Positions 617 through 35,383 of a DNA stretch of 35,383 nucleotides are shown here, in pieces. Below the pieces are notes generated by a model. That model saw only the letters and a list, made by a program, of their open reading frames with translations. It made no database searches and had not been told where the DNA came from. A program made the translations under genes and the position numbers. Source of the DNA: Desulfobulbus propionicus (GTDB lineage Bacteria; Desulfobacterota; Dissulfuribacteria; Dissulfuribacterales; DYOW01); NCBI GenBank assembly GCA_020720325.1, contig DYOW01000017.1, positions 1 through 35,383 of the forward strand, written 5' to 3'. The stretch's first letter is position 1, and each line of letters starts with the position of its first letter.

Positions 617-1648
617 TTATCTTACCCTGATAACCCCGGATGATTGTTCTCCAACATAACCCACCTCATAATGGGGACAATTTCTTTCTTCAAGTTTGTT
701 ATGTAATTCATTCACCTTATCTGCAGAAACAGATATAAGAAGGCCGCCGGATGTCTGGGCATCTGAGAGGCAATCAATAATAAAAGGAGATATATTGCTA
801 TCTATTATTACAGATTCCTTACAATATTTAAGATTTTCAATACTTCCAGCAGGGAGCATCCCCATGTTTATCATATCAATTACAGTAGGCAAAATTGGAA
901 AATCCACAGAGTTAATTATCATATCAACCTTTGAAGCAGAAGCCATTTCCAACGCATGTCCAAGAAATCCAAATCCGGTTATGTCAGTGCAGGCATTAAC
1001 TCCAACATCCTGCATTGCCTCGCAGGCATCTTTATTTAATGTTGTCATCCATCCTATCACATCCTGTTCAGCCTGTTTTGAGATAAACCCTGCCTTAATT
1101 GCAGTGGTTAGGATACCAGTGCCAACAGGTTTTGTAAGAATTAGCCTGTCCCCAGTTTTTGCTCCGGCATTTGTCACAACTTTATCTGGATGGATCACCC
1201 CTGTTATGCTTAAACCATATTTAATCTCAGTATCATCAACGCTGTGACCTCCCACAAGCACAGCGCCTGTCTGATTTATTATCTCAAGGCCTCCAAGAAG
1301 TATGTCCTTTAAAATCTGAGGGTCAAGGCCTTTTTTGGGGAAACAAACAATATTCATAGCAGTGACAGGCTTTCCTCCCATTGCGTAAACATCGCTAAAG
1401 GAATTAACCGCTGTAATCCTGCCAAAATCAAAGGGATCATCCACAATAGGAGTAAAAAAATCAACGGTCTGAATAATCGCAAGCTCATCCGTAAGTCGAA
1501 ACACCCCTGCGTCATCAAAGTTTTCCCTGCCCACAAGCAAATCAGGATGCTTTGTTAATGGTATATCTCTTAAAAGTTCCCCCAGGAACCCCGGAGGCAG
1601 CTTGCTTGCTCAACCAGCTGCTTTTACGCCCTGTGTCAGTTTTATCAT
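617..1648 (-). CDS. selD: Selenophosphate synthetase (selenide, water dikinase) with in-frame UGA = selenocysteine 13
   Basis: SelD makes selenophosphate from selenide and ATP, the selenium donor for selenocysteine tRNA and selenouridine. The part after the UGA (residues 14-343) holds the AIRS/PurM-like ATP-binding fold, including the VGGHSVDD loop. The open stretch seems to begin at a TTG at 1540, but the same frame continues upstream through one TGA (1610-1612) to an ATG at 1648. That N-terminus reads MIKLTQGVKAAG-U-ASKLPPG, which is the SelD start with U13 and K16 in the spacing of the E. coli catalytic pair Cys17/Lys20. The family is known to use either Cys or Sec at this position. Total length is 343 residues, normal for SelD. 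It lies 23 bases downstream of the amphi-Trp gene, so the two are probably co-transcribed. The TTG start would remove the catalytic residue and is rejected. Confidence 0.93.
1579..1597 (-). promoter_or_regulatory. Candidate bacterial SECIS hairpin for the selD UGA
   Basis: In the selD mRNA the stem CCUCC pairs with GGGGG (five pairs, one U-G) around the nine-base loop GGGGUUCCU. The loop begins 18 bases after the UGA. Bacterial SECIS elements sit directly downstream of the UGA with a short stem and G residues early in the apical loop, so position and loop composition fit. An alternative fold (GUUCC with GGAAC around UGGG) is also possible, so the exact structure is uncertain. Confidence 0.55.
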
Positions 1649-9329: not shown

Positions 9330-9357
9330 ATTATAATAGTGTGGAAAATTTTGTCAA
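9330..9357 (-). promoter_or_regulatory. Sigma-70 promoter for rplM-rpsI
   Basis: On the minus strand a consensus TTGACA (9357-9352), a 16-base spacer and a consensus TATAAT (9335-9330) lie 34 bases upstream of the rplM ATG. It is the best promoter match I saw in the window and suits ribosomal protein expression. Confidence 0.85.
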
Positions 9358-9517
9358 GTTTTTTTCTTAATAAAAAATTAAAGTTTAAAATATTAAATAG
9401 CAATCATGATCTTCCACCTATATTGTGCAAACCCAACTTACGTATTATACTAAAAAAACAGCATGGAAAAATTTCTCAAATACCGCTTAGCTTAGACTTC
9501 ACAAAAACAGGGGAAGA

Positions 9518-10081
9518 GTGGGCTTTTTGTGCGGGCTATCAGTATTTCCTGGTTTACTTGTCATTCTTATCTGCTTATTTCTCTTTGACACAGATGACGA
9601 ATGGCAATCCTATCAGAGCGTTATCCCTGAAACAAAAAGCGCCCTGATATTCAATTGGAAAGCAATACATCCCTTTCTATCTGAATATGACAGAACAATT
9701 CAAGTCGTATCAGATGGGCGCAAGTCAAAGGAATACTGGCTTTCAACAAACACCGGCGGAAGACATCATCTGAATCTCTATCTACTGACAATCGAAAACG
9801 AAAACTGGCTAAGGATATTAGATAAATTCTCTAAATGTGTAATCAATCTTAACACACATGAGGGATTAAGTATTGGCAGAAAATCTGGAAAAACATTTGT
9901 TGCGCCTCCGAATAAAATGGAGTATTGGGGATATACAGGGAATCACAATAATCCTGAAAACCTACAGGCATTCTTAGGGGAGATAAAGGGGACATACGAC
10001 CCAAGATTTGATAAACCCGGAAAATATATAGGGGCATTGGATGCAAGAACTGAAAAACTACGTTTCATTCCTGCCGCTTAG
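9518..10081 (+). CDS. Orphan membrane-anchored protein; frame continues past an amber codon to 10177
   Basis: A GTG start at 9518 (or the TTG at 9527, better spaced from GGGGAAG at 9510-9516) opens a 187-residue frame. Residues about 6-27 form a single hydrophobic helix (PGLLVILICLFLF). The rest is soluble and coding-like, with patches such as FNWKAIHPFLSEYDR, TNTGGRHHLNLYLL and MEYWGYTGNHNNPE. I do not recognise the family. The frame stops at TAG (10079-10081), but the next 31 codons in the same frame also look like protein (QPEEHIKTHEEQAVEIDRKF...) and end at TAA (10175-10177). It may therefore be a 219-residue gene with an amber interruption. Upstream, the frame is closed by another TAG at 9488. 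It stands alone, divergent from rplM, so a decaying or horizontally acquired gene is possible. Confidence 0.55.
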   Translation: MGFLCGLSVFPGLLVILICLFLFDTDDEWQSYQSVIPETKSALIFNWKAIHPFLSEYDRTIQVVSDGRKSKEYWLSTNTGGRHHLNLYLLTIENENWLRILDKFSKCVINLNTHEGLSIGRKSGKTFVAPPNKMEYWGYTGNHNNPENLQAFLGEIKGTYDPRFDKPGKYIGALDARTEKLRFIPAA

Positions 10082-15011: not shown

Positions 15012-17828
15012 ATGCAGACAAAATATATTGTAGGAATCGATCTCGGAACAACAAATTCTGCTGTTGCCTATGCAAATCTTTATGATATTGCAACCCAGGG
15101 AATAGAGATAAAGAGCTTTGAGATTCCGCAGGTAGTCACATCCGGAAGGGTTGCAAACAGACCCACACTACCTTCTTTTTTATACTTACCAGACGAAAAA
15201 GAGTTTATAGCCGGGGAAATAGCGCTCCCATGGGATAATGACCCTAAATATTGTGTTGGAGCTTTCGCAAGGGATTTTGGCACATTAAACCCTTTAAGGC
15301 TGGTTTCATCCGCAAAAAGCTGGCTATGTCACAGCGGAATTGACAGAGAATCAACGATATTGCCTTTTGGGATTGAAAATCAAGACATTAAAAAAATATC
15401 TCCGGTTGAGGCATCCAAAAATTATCTTCTTCACATTAAAAATGCCTGGAATCATGTCATGGGAAGGGATAATGCCCTTGAAAAACAATATGTTGTGCTC
15501 ACAGTTCCGGCATCTTTCGATGAAGTTGCAAGGGAGCTTACACTAAAGGCGGCAAATGAAGCTGGATTAAAAAACCTCACCCTTATTGAAGAACCTCTTG
15601 CCGCATTTTATTCATGGCTTTCAAACAACGAGTCAAACTGGAATAATTTTATTTGCGAAGGAGACACTGTTCTTGTGTGCGATGTGGGAGGAGGAACCAC
15701 AGACTTTACCCTTATTTCCTGCCATAAAAAAGATGATAAACCCCTTCTTGAAAGAATTGCTGTGGGCGATCATCTGCTTTTGGGCGGAGATAATATTGAT
15801 ATAACCATCACACATCTTGCTGAAAAAGAACTGAATCAGGAGCTTGGTTTTGTGGCATGGCAAAATCTCCTTCACCAGAGCAGACAGGCAAAAGAAAAAA
15901 TTTTCTCTGAAGAAAAAGATGATATAGAATTAAAAGAGGTCTCATTAAGGATACAAAGACCCGGTAAATCCCTTGTGGGCGGCACAACCGTCATTAATCT
16001 TAAAAAAGATGAGATTGTCCCTAAGATAACCGAGGGTTTTTTTCCGGTAATATCATTTGAAGAATGTCTTAAAAAAACGACTGGCACAACAGGCATTAGA
16101 GAGATGGGACTTCCCTTTGAGGACGACCCCTGCATAACAAGACATATTGGAAGCTTTATTGCCAGACACTCGGAAAAACTCCCCGATATTATTCTTTTTA
16201 ACGGAGGCACACTAAAACCTGAAATATTCAGAAAAAGAATTATTGAAAACCTTTCATTATGGAAAAATGGCGAAATCAGCGAGCTTCCATCCAAATCCCT
16301 TGACCTTGCAATTTCATTAGGCGCCGCTTACTACGGTCTTACCAAGCACGGCATTGGTTTAAGGGTAGGAGGCGGTATTGCAAGGAGTTACTATCTTGGT
16401 CTTGACACAGGAGAAGAAACACAAAAATCCATCTGCCTTATACCCCAGGGAACCCTTGAAGGCGAGGAACAGTCCATTAACAGGGATTTTAAGATAAGGA
16501 CAAACAGCCCTGTTAAATTTTCCCTTTACACCTCAACAGTGAGACATAATGACAAGACAGGGGATATTATTGCTGTAAATGAAGATATTTTTAAGCTACC
16601 GCCACTACAAACCTTCTTAAAATACGGTAAATCAACATCGCATAACCTTATAGACGTTAATATAACCGCAAGGCTTACTGAAACCGGCATTATTGAAATA
16701 TTTTGCAACTCCCTTACATTAACCCATAAATGGAAACTCCAGTTCCAGCTAAAACAACAAGAATTAAAACAGTCATCAGGGCCCGAAGGCGTAAGGGTAA
16801 TTCCACATAAAAATGATGACAATGAAAAATTACTAACTGATTCGGATAAAGAAGCCCTTGAAGAGATAAAAAAACATATTGAATTCTGTTTTTCTCCCCA
16901 AAAAGAAGCCCGTATTTCACCAAAAGACCTGCCAAATAAATTAAATGAAATAACCAGCATGCCCAGGGAAAACTGGGGGCTTGGCCTTATAAGGGGCATA
17001 TCAGACCAGCTTTTGATATATAAAGACGGCATGAAACTCTCAAATGAGCATGAAAACAGATGGCTTAATCTCTGCGGGTTTTGTTTAAGACCGGGAATTG
17101 GCGAGCGCCTTGACCCCTGGCGCATAAAAAAGGCATGGACTATCTTTCTTGAAGGACTTAAATATCCAAAAGACAATGAATCAAGAAAACAGTGGTGGAT
17201 ATACTGGAGAAGAATCAGCGCCGGCCTCACATCAGGTCAGCAATCACAAATATTTAACGCTATAAAACCCTTTATTATTTCGGAAAAAACACAAAACAAT
17301 AAACAAAAGACTAAAAAAACAGTATCTCAGACACAGGTAAAGGCAACTTTTGAAGAAAAAAGAGAGATGTGGCTTCTTGCAAGTTTCCTCCAGAAATTAG
17401 ACCCCTCAATTAAGACTGATATTGGAGACGAACTTCTTGATATGATAATAAAAGGCAGACATTTTGCCGGCATTTACTGGGCATTTTCAAGAATTGGCGA
17501 GAGGGTTCCTGTTTATTGCCCTATCGACAAGGTTATTCCATATAAAATTATAAATTTATGGTTAAATGAACTGAAAAAGGCAGAACACATCCCCAAAAAT
17601 CAGCTCTTAAATCTTGCAATTTCCTTTGCAAGGCTGACAGGTGACAGATTCAGGGATTTGCCGCTTTCATCAAGGGAAGACCTGAAGACATGGCTTATAA
17701 GCGCAGGTATTTCAGAAAATGAACTTACCCCTATTTTTGAAATTATTGACCTTAAAAAAACTGAAATAGAATCTGCCTTTGGAGAAGGACTACCTGAGGG
17801 TCTGGTTTTAGAAAGCCCAGAAGAGTAG
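15012..17828 (+). CDS. Hsp70-family protein with C-terminal DUF3731-like region
   Basis: A 938-residue protein. The N-terminal ATPase domain shows the phosphate loop IDLGTTNSAVAYA (9-21), VLTVPASFDEVARE (about 158-171), EEPLAAFYSW and DVGGGTTDFTLIS (about 226-238). It is not the housekeeping DnaK: the substrate-binding half is replaced by a helical region containing QWWIYWRRISAGLTSGQQ, which matches my recollection of DUF3731 in DnaK-related proteins. No dnaJ or grpE is adjacent. Such proteins are poorly characterised and a chaperone role is inferred from the ATPase domain only. It starts 15 bases after the upstream terminator with no clear ribosome binding site, and ends in TAG before a perfect palindrome. 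Confidence 0.85.
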   Translation: MQTKYIVGIDLGTTNSAVAYANLYDIATQGIEIKSFEIPQVVTSGRVANRPTLPSFLYLPDEKEFIAGEIALPWDNDPKYCVGAFARDFGTLNPLRLVSSAKSWLCHSGIDRESTILPFGIENQDIKKISPVEASKNYLLHIKNAWNHVMGRDNALEKQYVVLTVPASFDEVARELTLKAANEAGLKNLTLIEEPLAAFYSWLSNNESNWNNFICEGDTVLVCDVGGGTTDFTLISCHKKDDKPLLERIAVGDHLLLGGDNIDITITHLAEKELNQELGFVAWQNLLHQSRQAKEKIFSEEKDDIELKEVSLRIQRPGKSLVGGTTVINLKKDEIVPKITEGFFPVISFEECLKKTTGTTGIREMGLPFEDDPCITRHIGSFIARHSEKLPDIILFNGGTLKPEIFRKRIIENLSLWKNGEISELPSKSLDLAISLGAAYYGLTKHGIGLRVGGGIARSYYLGLDTGEETQKSICLIPQGTLEGEEQSINRDFKIRTNSPVKFSLYTSTVRHNDKTGDIIAVNEDIFKLPPLQTFLKYGKSTSHNLIDVNITARLTETGIIEIFCNSLTLTHKWKLQFQLKQQELKQSSGPEGVRVIPHKNDDNEKLLTDSDKEALEEIKKHIEFCFSPQKEARISPKDLPNKLNEITSMPRENWGLGLIRGISDQLLIYKDGMKLSNEHENRWLNLCGFCLRPGIGERLDPWRIKKAWTIFLEGLKYPKDNESRKQWWIYWRRISAGLTSGQQSQIFNAIKPFIISEKTQNNKQKTKKTVSQTQVKATFEEKREMWLLASFLQKLDPSIKTDIGDELLDMIIKGRHFAGIYWAFSRIGERVPVYCPIDKVIPYKIINLWLNELKKAEHIPKNQLLNLAISFARLTGDRFRDLPLSSREDLKTWLISAGISENELTPIFEIIDLKKTEIESAFGEGLPEGLVLESPEE

Positions 17829-32081: not shown

Positions 32082-34406
32082 TTGACTAATATCGCAAACA
32101 AAGAGCTTATAACAAACATATCAGGTAAAATTGAGCGAATAACCTACAGTTCAAACGAATCCGGTTATGTTGTTTTAAGAATAAGACCCATTAAGGGCGG
32201 AGGGCAATTCACTGCGGTTGGCCACATTCCTGAGCTTATAAACAATGCCCTTCTTGAAGGCGTTGAAATCGAGTTTGAAGGACAGTGGAACCTCACCAAA
32301 TACGGCAGGCAGTTTAATTTCACCCAATATAAATTTCTTGACGGCGATGTGTATTTCTTTCTTTCACGGGTTGTAAAAGGAGTGGGAAAAGAACTCGCAA
32401 AAACCCTCATAAGCAAATACGGCGAAAAAGAAATCATTAACATCCTCGACAAAGAACCCCAAAAGCTCCTGTCTGTCAAGGGAATAAAGACCAAAAGACT
32501 CCAGGTTATCACAAATTCATGGCAAAAACATAAAAGCCTCAAGGAACTTTCCAATTACCTCAACATAAAAACCGGTCAGATCACCTCGAACATGCTTATA
32601 AAAATCTACAATCATTTTGGAGAAAAAGCCATTAATCTTATAAGGGAAAATCCTTATAACCTTTGCGACATAAGGGGGGTTGGCTTTAAAACAGCAGATA
32701 AGATCGCGCTTTCCACAGGTCTTAGAGCAGACTCTCCCCAGAGAATCACAGCGGCAATAAACCATCTTCTCCTTGAAGAGGCTGAAAACGAAGGGCACTG
32801 CTACCAGAATAATGAAGAATTCCTGAAAAAAATAACAGAACTTATGACACATGAGGAAATAAGCCCCAAAAAAGAAGATATTGAAAAAGCCATTGGACAG
32901 ATGTCTGCCCTTGGAAATATTATTTTAGGACAGGATGAAAAACTTGGGCTTTCCAGCTTCTATTACATGGAATCATGGATAAGAAATTTTTTTGAGGAAC
33001 GTTCTTTAATAACAGACAGAAAGACAATAGCAGTTTCGGATGTTGAAAATTTTATATCCCAGTACGAGGAAAGGACAAAATTCGAGCTTTCCCATGAACA
33101 AAAAGAGATAATAATAAAAATCGCAACCGAGGGCAGGATGCTTTTTAGTCTCGCAGGCTATGCAGGAACAGGAAAAACCACTGTATGCCGTGTCATATTA
33201 AACCTTTTGAGCAGATATTACTGTAAAGACAATGATATTGTGTGCTGCGCCTTCACAGGTATGGCATCTTCCAGAATCAGAAAGGCAACAGGCTTTGACG
33301 CATTTACCATCCACAGCCTCTTAAAATATCAGGGAGAGAATAAATTTGAGCATGGCCCGGAAAACCCACTGCCCTACAAGATTGTCGTGCTTGACGAGGC
33401 CTCAATGGTAAATTTACAGATATTTTACAGGCTTGCGCGCTCCTTGCGACCTGACACACTCTTTATTCTTGTGGGAGATCCTGCCCAGCTTCCCCCCATT
33501 GGAGCTGGAAATGTATTTGCTGATGCCCTTGAAAAATCATTGATACCATCAATAAAACTCACAAAAATATACCGGCAGAGCGAAGACAGCGTGCTTACTC
33601 TTTTTGCAAATACCATAAGGGAGGGAATCGTCCCGGAAGGCGTTAATGAATCAAACTGGAAGGATTTCAGGTTTGAAAATGTGGAGCCCCATAACCTTAT
33701 TATCGCAAAAAATAAATGTTCAGAAAAGGAATTAAAACTCCTCAGGGAAGAAAACAATATGGCAATCCTTAACAGAATCCGGGGGCTTGCCCAATATTAC
33801 AAAGATAAACTGGAACACCCAATCTGGGATTTTCAGGTTCTTACACCAATGAGAATGGGTCAGCTCGGAACTGAAAACCTGAATCTTGTCCTGCAAAACA
33901 TATTAAATCCCCTGCCAAAAACAAGCCTGAAAAAACACGGTTTGGAGATACGGGAAGGTGACAAGGTTGTGCATCTTCAAAATAAAGATATGCCCTGCAT
34001 GGACTGGGAGGAATACCTGCAAAGTGGCAAAAATTTTTCAGGCAAGGAATTTAAGCGAATATTTAACGGAAGCGTGGGTTTAATAACAAAAATTGACACA
34101 GAAGAAGACATGTTTTATGTTGTATATCCAGAAAGGATTGTTATTGCCTATCATGCCGATTATATAGGAGATATAATAGAACATGCCTTTTCCTTGACTG
34201 TCCATAAGGCGCAGGGCAGCCAGTACAGGGTTGTGGTTATTCCCCTTACAAATTCACATTTTATAATGCTCAATAACAAATGGTTCTATACAGCGATCAC
34301 AAGGGCTGAACAAAAGGTATATCTTATTGGTCAGAAATACGCCTTAAAAAGGGCATGCACCAACATTGAAAGCGCTGAAAGAAAGACGTGGCTTAAGGGT
34401 TTTTAA
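32082..34406 (+). CDS. recD2: RecD2-type ATP-dependent DNA helicase
   Basis: A 774-residue superfamily 1B helicase (5'-3') of the RecD2 type, found without RecBC and linked to DNA repair and replication-fork maintenance. An N-terminal OB-like region (GKIERITYSSNESGYVVLRI) is followed by helix-hairpin-helix segments (GVGKELAKTLISKYG and DIRGVGFKTADKIAL). The motor has Walker A GYAGTGKTT at 359-367, motif II VLDEASM, GDPAQLPPIGAGN, YRQSED and the late SLTVHKAQGSQ and TAITRAEQKVYLIG. The start is a TTG six bases after the zinc-ribbon gene, with no clear ribosome binding site, so translation may be coupled. No recB or recC is in the window. Confidence 0.93.
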   Translation: MTNIANKELITNISGKIERITYSSNESGYVVLRIRPIKGGGQFTAVGHIPELINNALLEGVEIEFEGQWNLTKYGRQFNFTQYKFLDGDVYFFLSRVVKGVGKELAKTLISKYGEKEIINILDKEPQKLLSVKGIKTKRLQVITNSWQKHKSLKELSNYLNIKTGQITSNMLIKIYNHFGEKAINLIRENPYNLCDIRGVGFKTADKIALSTGLRADSPQRITAAINHLLLEEAENEGHCYQNNEEFLKKITELMTHEEISPKKEDIEKAIGQMSALGNIILGQDEKLGLSSFYYMESWIRNFFEERSLITDRKTIAVSDVENFISQYEERTKFELSHEQKEIIIKIATEGRMLFSLAGYAGTGKTTVCRVILNLLSRYYCKDNDIVCCAFTGMASSRIRKATGFDAFTIHSLLKYQGENKFEHGPENPLPYKIVVLDEASMVNLQIFYRLARSLRPDTLFILVGDPAQLPPIGAGNVFADALEKSLIPSIKLTKIYRQSEDSVLTLFANTIREGIVPEGVNESNWKDFRFENVEPHNLIIAKNKCSEKELKLLREENNMAILNRIRGLAQYYKDKLEHPIWDFQVLTPMRMGQLGTENLNLVLQNILNPLPKTSLKKHGLEIREGDKVVHLQNKDMPCMDWEEYLQSGKNFSGKEFKRIFNGSVGLITKIDTEEDMFYVVYPERIVIAYHADYIGDIIEHAFSLTVHKAQGSQYRVVVIPLTNSHFIMLNNKWFYTAITRAEQKVYLIGQKYALKRACTNIESAERKTWLKGF

Positions 34407-34414
34407 AAATTTAG

Positions 34415-35191
34415 TTAGTGCGGTAATAATAAAAAGGCATCCGTTACTGTATGATTAAGCGTCACTGTGAGATTGCTTCCATCCCAATTTGCTTGTGGAG
34501 TAAGGGACACCGGAGCTGTCTCCGTTGAATATTGCCAGGCGCTCACTTCGCCAACAGCGGAAATATCACAGGGATTTAATTGCAAGGTAAGCGTTTCAAT
34601 AAAAAAAGGTGAAAAAGACGTTTTTTCGTCAGGCGGCAGAAATGCAACAAGTATCCTGATAAGTTTTCCATCTGCCCCGCGACAAAACATTATGCTGGCA
34701 TCCACCCCGGAAAAAGCATTAACAAGAATATGTGACAAATACTGGTTTGAGAGCAGTTCCCCAAGGAGATTAACCGCTTCATCTCCCTTTCCACCAGGTT
34801 CATTCTGATCTGTGCTCCACCAAATCTAGCGTGTTTGCCATGCCGTCAAATTGTGACTGGCAGCCCACTGGATAAATCGAAAGGAGCGGTTAAGCACACT
34901 GACTGGTCCTGTGCCTTTATTTCCGTGCTCTTCGGTAATCCAGATGGATTCAACTTTGCCTGACGCAAGATACTCATTATAGATTTCTTCTAAAACTGCA
35001 ATATCTCCCACTGGATAATGAATGGTAAGGATATCCACCAGCTCCCACACGGTCTTTCCGGCAAGACTTCCCGCGTATGAGCCTGTCAGGGTATAATTCA
35101 TTGTGTCGCGCATGTTCTGACGCTGGGTGGGATTGGCAATGCTCGGAAAACTGCCTGAAAGAAAGTAAAAATGATAGTTTGCCTTGCACAT
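34415..35191 (-). CDS. Glycosidase-like protein interrupted by one in-frame amber codon
   Basis: From an ATG at 35191 with a strong ribosome binding site (AAGGAGG) the frame runs 121 residues to TAG at 34828-34826, then continues without a shift for 136 more codons to TAA at 34415-34417, giving 258 positions with the amber at 122. Both halves look like one protein. The first half resembles the end of a TIM-barrel glycosidase (WELVDILTIHYPVGD, then VESIWITEEHG with a candidate catalytic Glu, and SVLNRSFRFIQWA). The second continues with EAVNLLGELLSNQ and beta-rich segments. No upstream barrel half exists in the AT-rich 35192-35383 stretch, so the gene is short for such an enzyme. GC content is visibly higher than its neighbours, suggesting transfer. 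A recent nonsense mutation is the simplest explanation; amber readthrough is the alternative. Confidence 0.6.
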
Positions 35192-35383
35192 TATCCTTGC
35201 CTCCTTGTAATAAGATACTTAAAACAAAATTTTAATTATTAGCTGTTTATATTAAATATTATTTTTATTTTTCATTTTTTCAAATAAAAAACTGCAAAAA
35301 ATCACAAACAAAAGAAAATACACGCACGCAATGGAAAAAAAAATTGAATTAATTTTAAAAAAAGATATAATAATTTTTAAAAA

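Follow-up and report, generated by a model that had tools for sequence, protein, structure and literature searches.

The locus at the contig end

The window that we analysed, i.e., the whole 35,383-nucleotide stretch of Desulfobulbus propionicus DNA, carries near its right-hand end what appears to be a gene remnant on the minus strand (34415–35191), which converges on the helicase gene recD2 (32082–34406, plus strand) and ends 8 bp from it. The remnant frame runs from an ATG at 35191 to a TAA at 34415 and comprises 121 open codons, an amber codon at codon 122 (TAG, 34828–34826) and a further 136 open codons. The first-pass annotation had described two open stretches sharing one frame and split by this TAG; its coordinates were correct and the strand was left unstated. 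The frame is open to a greater extent than expected by chance: it has two stops in all, the TAG and the terminal TAA, whereas in 5000 base shuffles of the 777-base stretch the mean number of in-frame stops was 14.3 and only one shuffle had two or fewer.

The GC content of the remnant (45.3%) is higher than that of all 26 window genes measured (31.3–43.3%), which were hand-picked from the window with the ORFs at 1–411 and 9339–10081 left out, and the earlier remark that its composition is unlike that of its neighbours is borne out. The codon usage scores of its two halves are 0.13 and 0.20 bits per codon, compared with 0.24–0.66 in the same 26 genes. Both halves retain a coding-frame signal, and the TAG is the sole interruption of the frame; the remnant is therefore young or still used, a consideration that counts against its being a pseudogene.

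Between the ATG and an upstream TAA the frame continues for nine codons (VSYYKEARI; 35192–35218, minus strand), which may be the codons of the original gene that survive closest to the breakpoint, as by eye and without a score they resemble YYEMYRKTAQTLK in the helix before strand 5 of L051, one of the glycoside hydrolases considered below. The nine codons include AAGGAGG (35200–35206), located 8 bases before the ATG. This is a good spacing for ribosome binding, so the intact ribosome binding site noted previously holds good for motif and spacing, with the reservation that the same bases also read as in-frame codons.

At the start codon there is a sharp break in composition, GC per 100 bp falling from 0.46 to 0.15, and the DNA beyond (35219–35383) is AT-rich (~15–18% GC). 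The final 55 bases of the window (35329–35383) are identical to positions 1–55 of a second contig of the same genome (C40; L074). This exact overlap of contig ends is probably a k-mer overlap left by the assembly and would allow the two contigs to be placed in order; we treat the C54–C40 join as an exact end overlap rather than as proven adjacency. On C40, more AT-rich DNA leads to an unrelated gene (DUF3108), which points away from the remnant; across the overlap, the 283 bp from the ATG to this gene have a GC content of 15.5% and stop-free runs of at most 60 codons (at most 43 on the remnant strand). An empty site beside recD2 was not seen in relatives, as the C40 genes were not downstream of recD2 in the 11 loci viewed (25 relatives have a recD2 match).

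The assembly consists of 204 contigs, and the remnant lies within the final 969 bp of one of them and differs in composition from the rest, as would be expected if the TAG or the whole fragment were an assembly or sequencing artefact, produced by a wrong base or a chimeric junction. However, the frame ends immediately beside the end of recD2, the contig end runs into C40 through AT-rich DNA, and a base error would leave unexplained the missing front half of the gene described below. An artefact is therefore unlikely.

Several other features of the window are recorded here in their own right. The selD gene (617–1648, minus strand) has an in-frame TGA at 1612–1610, upstream of the TTG start of the listed ORF, and if this TGA is read as selenocysteine a complete SelD (TIGR00476) results, so that SelD is probably a selenoprotein in its own right. 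The RNA downstream of the TGA shows no better fold than shuffled sequences do. The start of an IS630-type transposase lies at 1–411 on the minus strand, cut by the contig end (58.8 bits, under the curated cut-off of 100), and an Hsp70-like protein with a C-terminal DUF3731 domain is encoded at 15012–17828.

Similarity to GH39/PslG-like glycoside hydrolases

The remnant ORF has no match in Pfam, NCBIfam or PHROGs, with the comparison of the ORF and its halves to Pfam extended to limits of E = 1 and 10. Its residues 43–143 match a 466-aa plasmid protein of Halomontanus rarus, encoded beside a GH97 gene (pairwise BLASTP, E = 6e-8). This protein was picked from a plasmid protein search in which its one record had an E value of 0.6, and alone it proves little. 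Because it had been chosen out of a large search, we tested eight more glycoside hydrolases, which were found via the Halomontanus protein and its relatives, the window sequence not being the sole query. Three of the eight align collinearly with the remnant at this same place: a 416-aa protein encoded in a glycosyltransferase cluster on an E. coli plasmid (E = 2e-7; 0 of 2000 shuffles scored as high), a second Halomontanus protein (E = 2e-7; 0 of 2000 shuffled queries) and one from a viral contig (E = 5e-4; 1 of 2000 shuffled queries). Overall, four of the nine glycoside hydrolases compared match at this place (pairwise E values of 6e-8 to 5e-4), and five (L051 and L079–L082) have no match to the remnant.

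The connection of the ORF to the GH39 family profile is indirect, through two relatives that themselves fall below the cut-off: the E values against PF01229 (GH39) are 0.0026 for the first Halomontanus protein and 0.00012 for the one from the E. coli plasmid. L051 is the only one of three proteins scanned that is above the Pfam GH39 cut-off, yet it does not match the remnant. In searches of the PDB, the first Halomontanus protein found PslG (E = 3e-4), and a longer family profile matched a beta-xylosidase (E = 7e-5) and PslG (E = 0.006) in alignments that span the part absent from the remnant; a profile restricted to the C-terminal part matched no glycosidase there.

Based on these alignments, we read the remnant as the later half of a GH39/PslG-like barrel (strands 5–8) together with the C-terminal part. 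The local alignments reach residues 43–149 at most, and the placement of the first 42 residues and of the C-terminal part depends on weak alignment; a beta-strand-rich C-terminus is seen only in a low-confidence single-sequence structure model (mean pLDDT 43.4). Like GH39/PslG-like enzymes (clan GH-A), the remnant has, in the same order, HY in strand 6, the Wx(T/S)E nucleophile motif in strand 7 and W in strand 8. It differs from them in lacking the first strands of the barrel, which bear the NEP acid/base motif, in a loop after strand 8 that by eye is ~17 residues shorter than that of P0002, and in the interruption of strand 8 by a stop codon.

The two catalytic glutamates of these enzymes have different fates in the remnant. 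The nucleophile glutamate of strand 7 has a counterpart: WITEE (residues 84–88) aligns with WNTEE and WQSEL of relatives, and codons 87 and 88, the Glu-Glu of IWITEEHG (34928–34933, minus strand), place codon 87 at the GH39-like nucleophile motif, as judged from the alignments and from the available text of two papers on characterized enzymes (PMC7242879; PMC11912335). In those portions of text, the acid/base and nucleophile residues are Glu162 and Glu279 in a GH39 beta-xylosidase, 117 residues apart (PMC7242879), and Glu165 and Glu276 in PslG, 111 residues apart (PMC11912335). In two of the matching relatives, NEP and the nucleophile are separated by 118 and 94 residues. With the nucleophile motif at residue 87 and a spacing of 94–118, the acid/base site of strand 4 should therefore fall before the start codon, i.e., before residue 1, insofar as the spacing in the cited text applies. 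Consistent with this, each of the four matching relatives has its NEP motif N-terminal to the aligned segment, and no NEP half adjoins the remnant. The front half was not found elsewhere in the genome with the Halomontanus protein, a weak search in that the same query also missed the known remnant, or with the family profile, which in that region rests on two sequences. The locus had been described as an otherwise open gene with no other visible damage; this description needs to be revised, as the frame represents the 3′ portion of a longer gene and lacks the front half. Compared with full-length homologues the remnant is truncated, and a stop codon interrupts it as well, the combination by which a pseudogene is recognized.

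A real short protein of 121 residues, translated from 35191 with its own ribosome binding site and co-opted to a new use, would suit the spacing of the AAGGAGG and the 121 open codons that follow the ATG. However, the AAGGAGG also belongs to the reading frame, and a part-barrel devoid of the acid/base residue would not be expected to act as a glycoside hydrolase; we give this explanation little credence.

Remnant residues 116–168 (34679–34844, minus strand) are also similar to an asparagine synthase encoded in the same genome (L007, 424–2364, minus strand; 37% over 59 columns). In pairwise comparison this similarity reaches 39.7 bits (E = 7e-8), a score attained by none of 2000 shuffles and as good as that of the best glycosidase match, while in genome searches the same protein, which matches Pfam Asn_synthase, had an E value of 9e-5. 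The alignment spans the TAG, with Gln in that column. The match would favour the view that the glycosidase similarity is misleading and that the frame represents a different family or a chimera, for example one with an asparagine synthase in its middle. Against this, none of six other asparagine synthases that are 45–47% identical to the matched one (six of the 341 plasmid records with a match) matched the remnant at that place, all having E > 0.1, whereas three of the eight further glycoside hydrolases were collinear with it. A different family or a chimera is thus improbable, and we take the asparagine synthase match to be due to chance because none of the six others matched there, yet it stays unexplained.

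Reading of the amber codon

The TAG lies in the predicted eighth barrel strand. Homologues do not end naturally at this point: all four collinear relatives run on through it, and comparison with them, as had been proposed, places Lys in the column of the TAG in each. Relatives so distant would not fix the residue that once stood there in the remnant gene.

Genes that use pyrrolysine or depend on an amber suppressor share with the remnant a single in-frame TAG, but differ in that the machinery for decoding it was not found in this genome. No CTA anticodon was present among 36 tRNA matches (E ≤ 0.001), all of which were read by ARAGORN; this set is incomplete (no Ile-GAT or Ala-TGC was seen), and an unusual tRNA could escape it, as ARAGORN was run at the tRNA-model hits. 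The genome is 97.55% complete. All matches of the genome to the PylS and PylB profiles were below the curated cut-offs. Some match to these profiles was obtained in 13 of 14 control genomes and the cut-off was passed in one; below-cut-off matches occurred in 12 of the 14 for each profile. The set that marks a pyrrolysine-using genome (PylS, PylB and a CUA tRNA) was accordingly not found, and the earlier idea that pylS and an amber suppressor tRNA might be present gained no support. In addition, RF1 scored above its cut-off and has an intact frame of 359 residues, and TAG terminates three of the 26 window genes examined, with 12–20 open codons after each.

A suppressed amber or pyrrolysine codon, by which a 258-residue protein would be made, is suggested by the single TAG in an otherwise open frame. 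Such a protein would, however, be without its acid/base half, and together with the absence of a CTA anticodon among the tRNA matches, the below-cut-off PylS and PylB, the intact RF1 and the use of TAG as a terminator, this makes decoding very improbable. The same defect in the product argues against simple readthrough. Hence, among the three options offered by the first-pass annotation (nonsense mutation, suppressed amber and readthrough), the nonsense mutation is the one that fits. If the amber were decoded, there would be stop-codon reading in a genome in which no known machinery for it was found, and the evidence does not support this.

Origin and status of the remnant

Protein searches detected no relatives of the remnant in the 59 nearest other genomes, in 394 others sampled across the phylum or in 45 others of the class (sets that overlap). 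Close homologues were likewise not found in genome_contigs (two scans), in viral_contigs (four scans with the remnant), in phages, or in plasmids searched by DNA. Based on this absence of matches in the other genomes searched, along with its composition, the remnant is probably of horizontal origin.

We consider it highly probable that the remnant is a pseudogene, derived from the 3′ portion of a probably acquired GH39/PslG-like gene and carrying one ordinary nonsense codon. In the proposed order of events, a gene for a GH39/PslG-like glycoside hydrolase would have been acquired by horizontal transfer, its 5′ half, with the first barrel strands and the acid/base glutamate, would have been lost at a putative breakpoint near 35216, and the remnant would have come to carry the TAG at 34828–34826. 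Its function is presumed to have been lost. A further scenario, in which the part-barrel is expressed and retained to bind sugars without catalysis, while low-level reading of the amber gives two product lengths, strikes us as far-fetched.

Bacterial pseudogenes left by horizontal transfer are of a known kind. The remnant resembles them in being truncated, in its foreign composition, in the lack of matches in relatives and in its nonsense codon, and nothing distinctive sets it apart. The locus serves mainly as a warning: its amber codon, set in an open frame, suggested possible recoding, and it is the full-length relatives that indicate that the front half of the gene was already gone.
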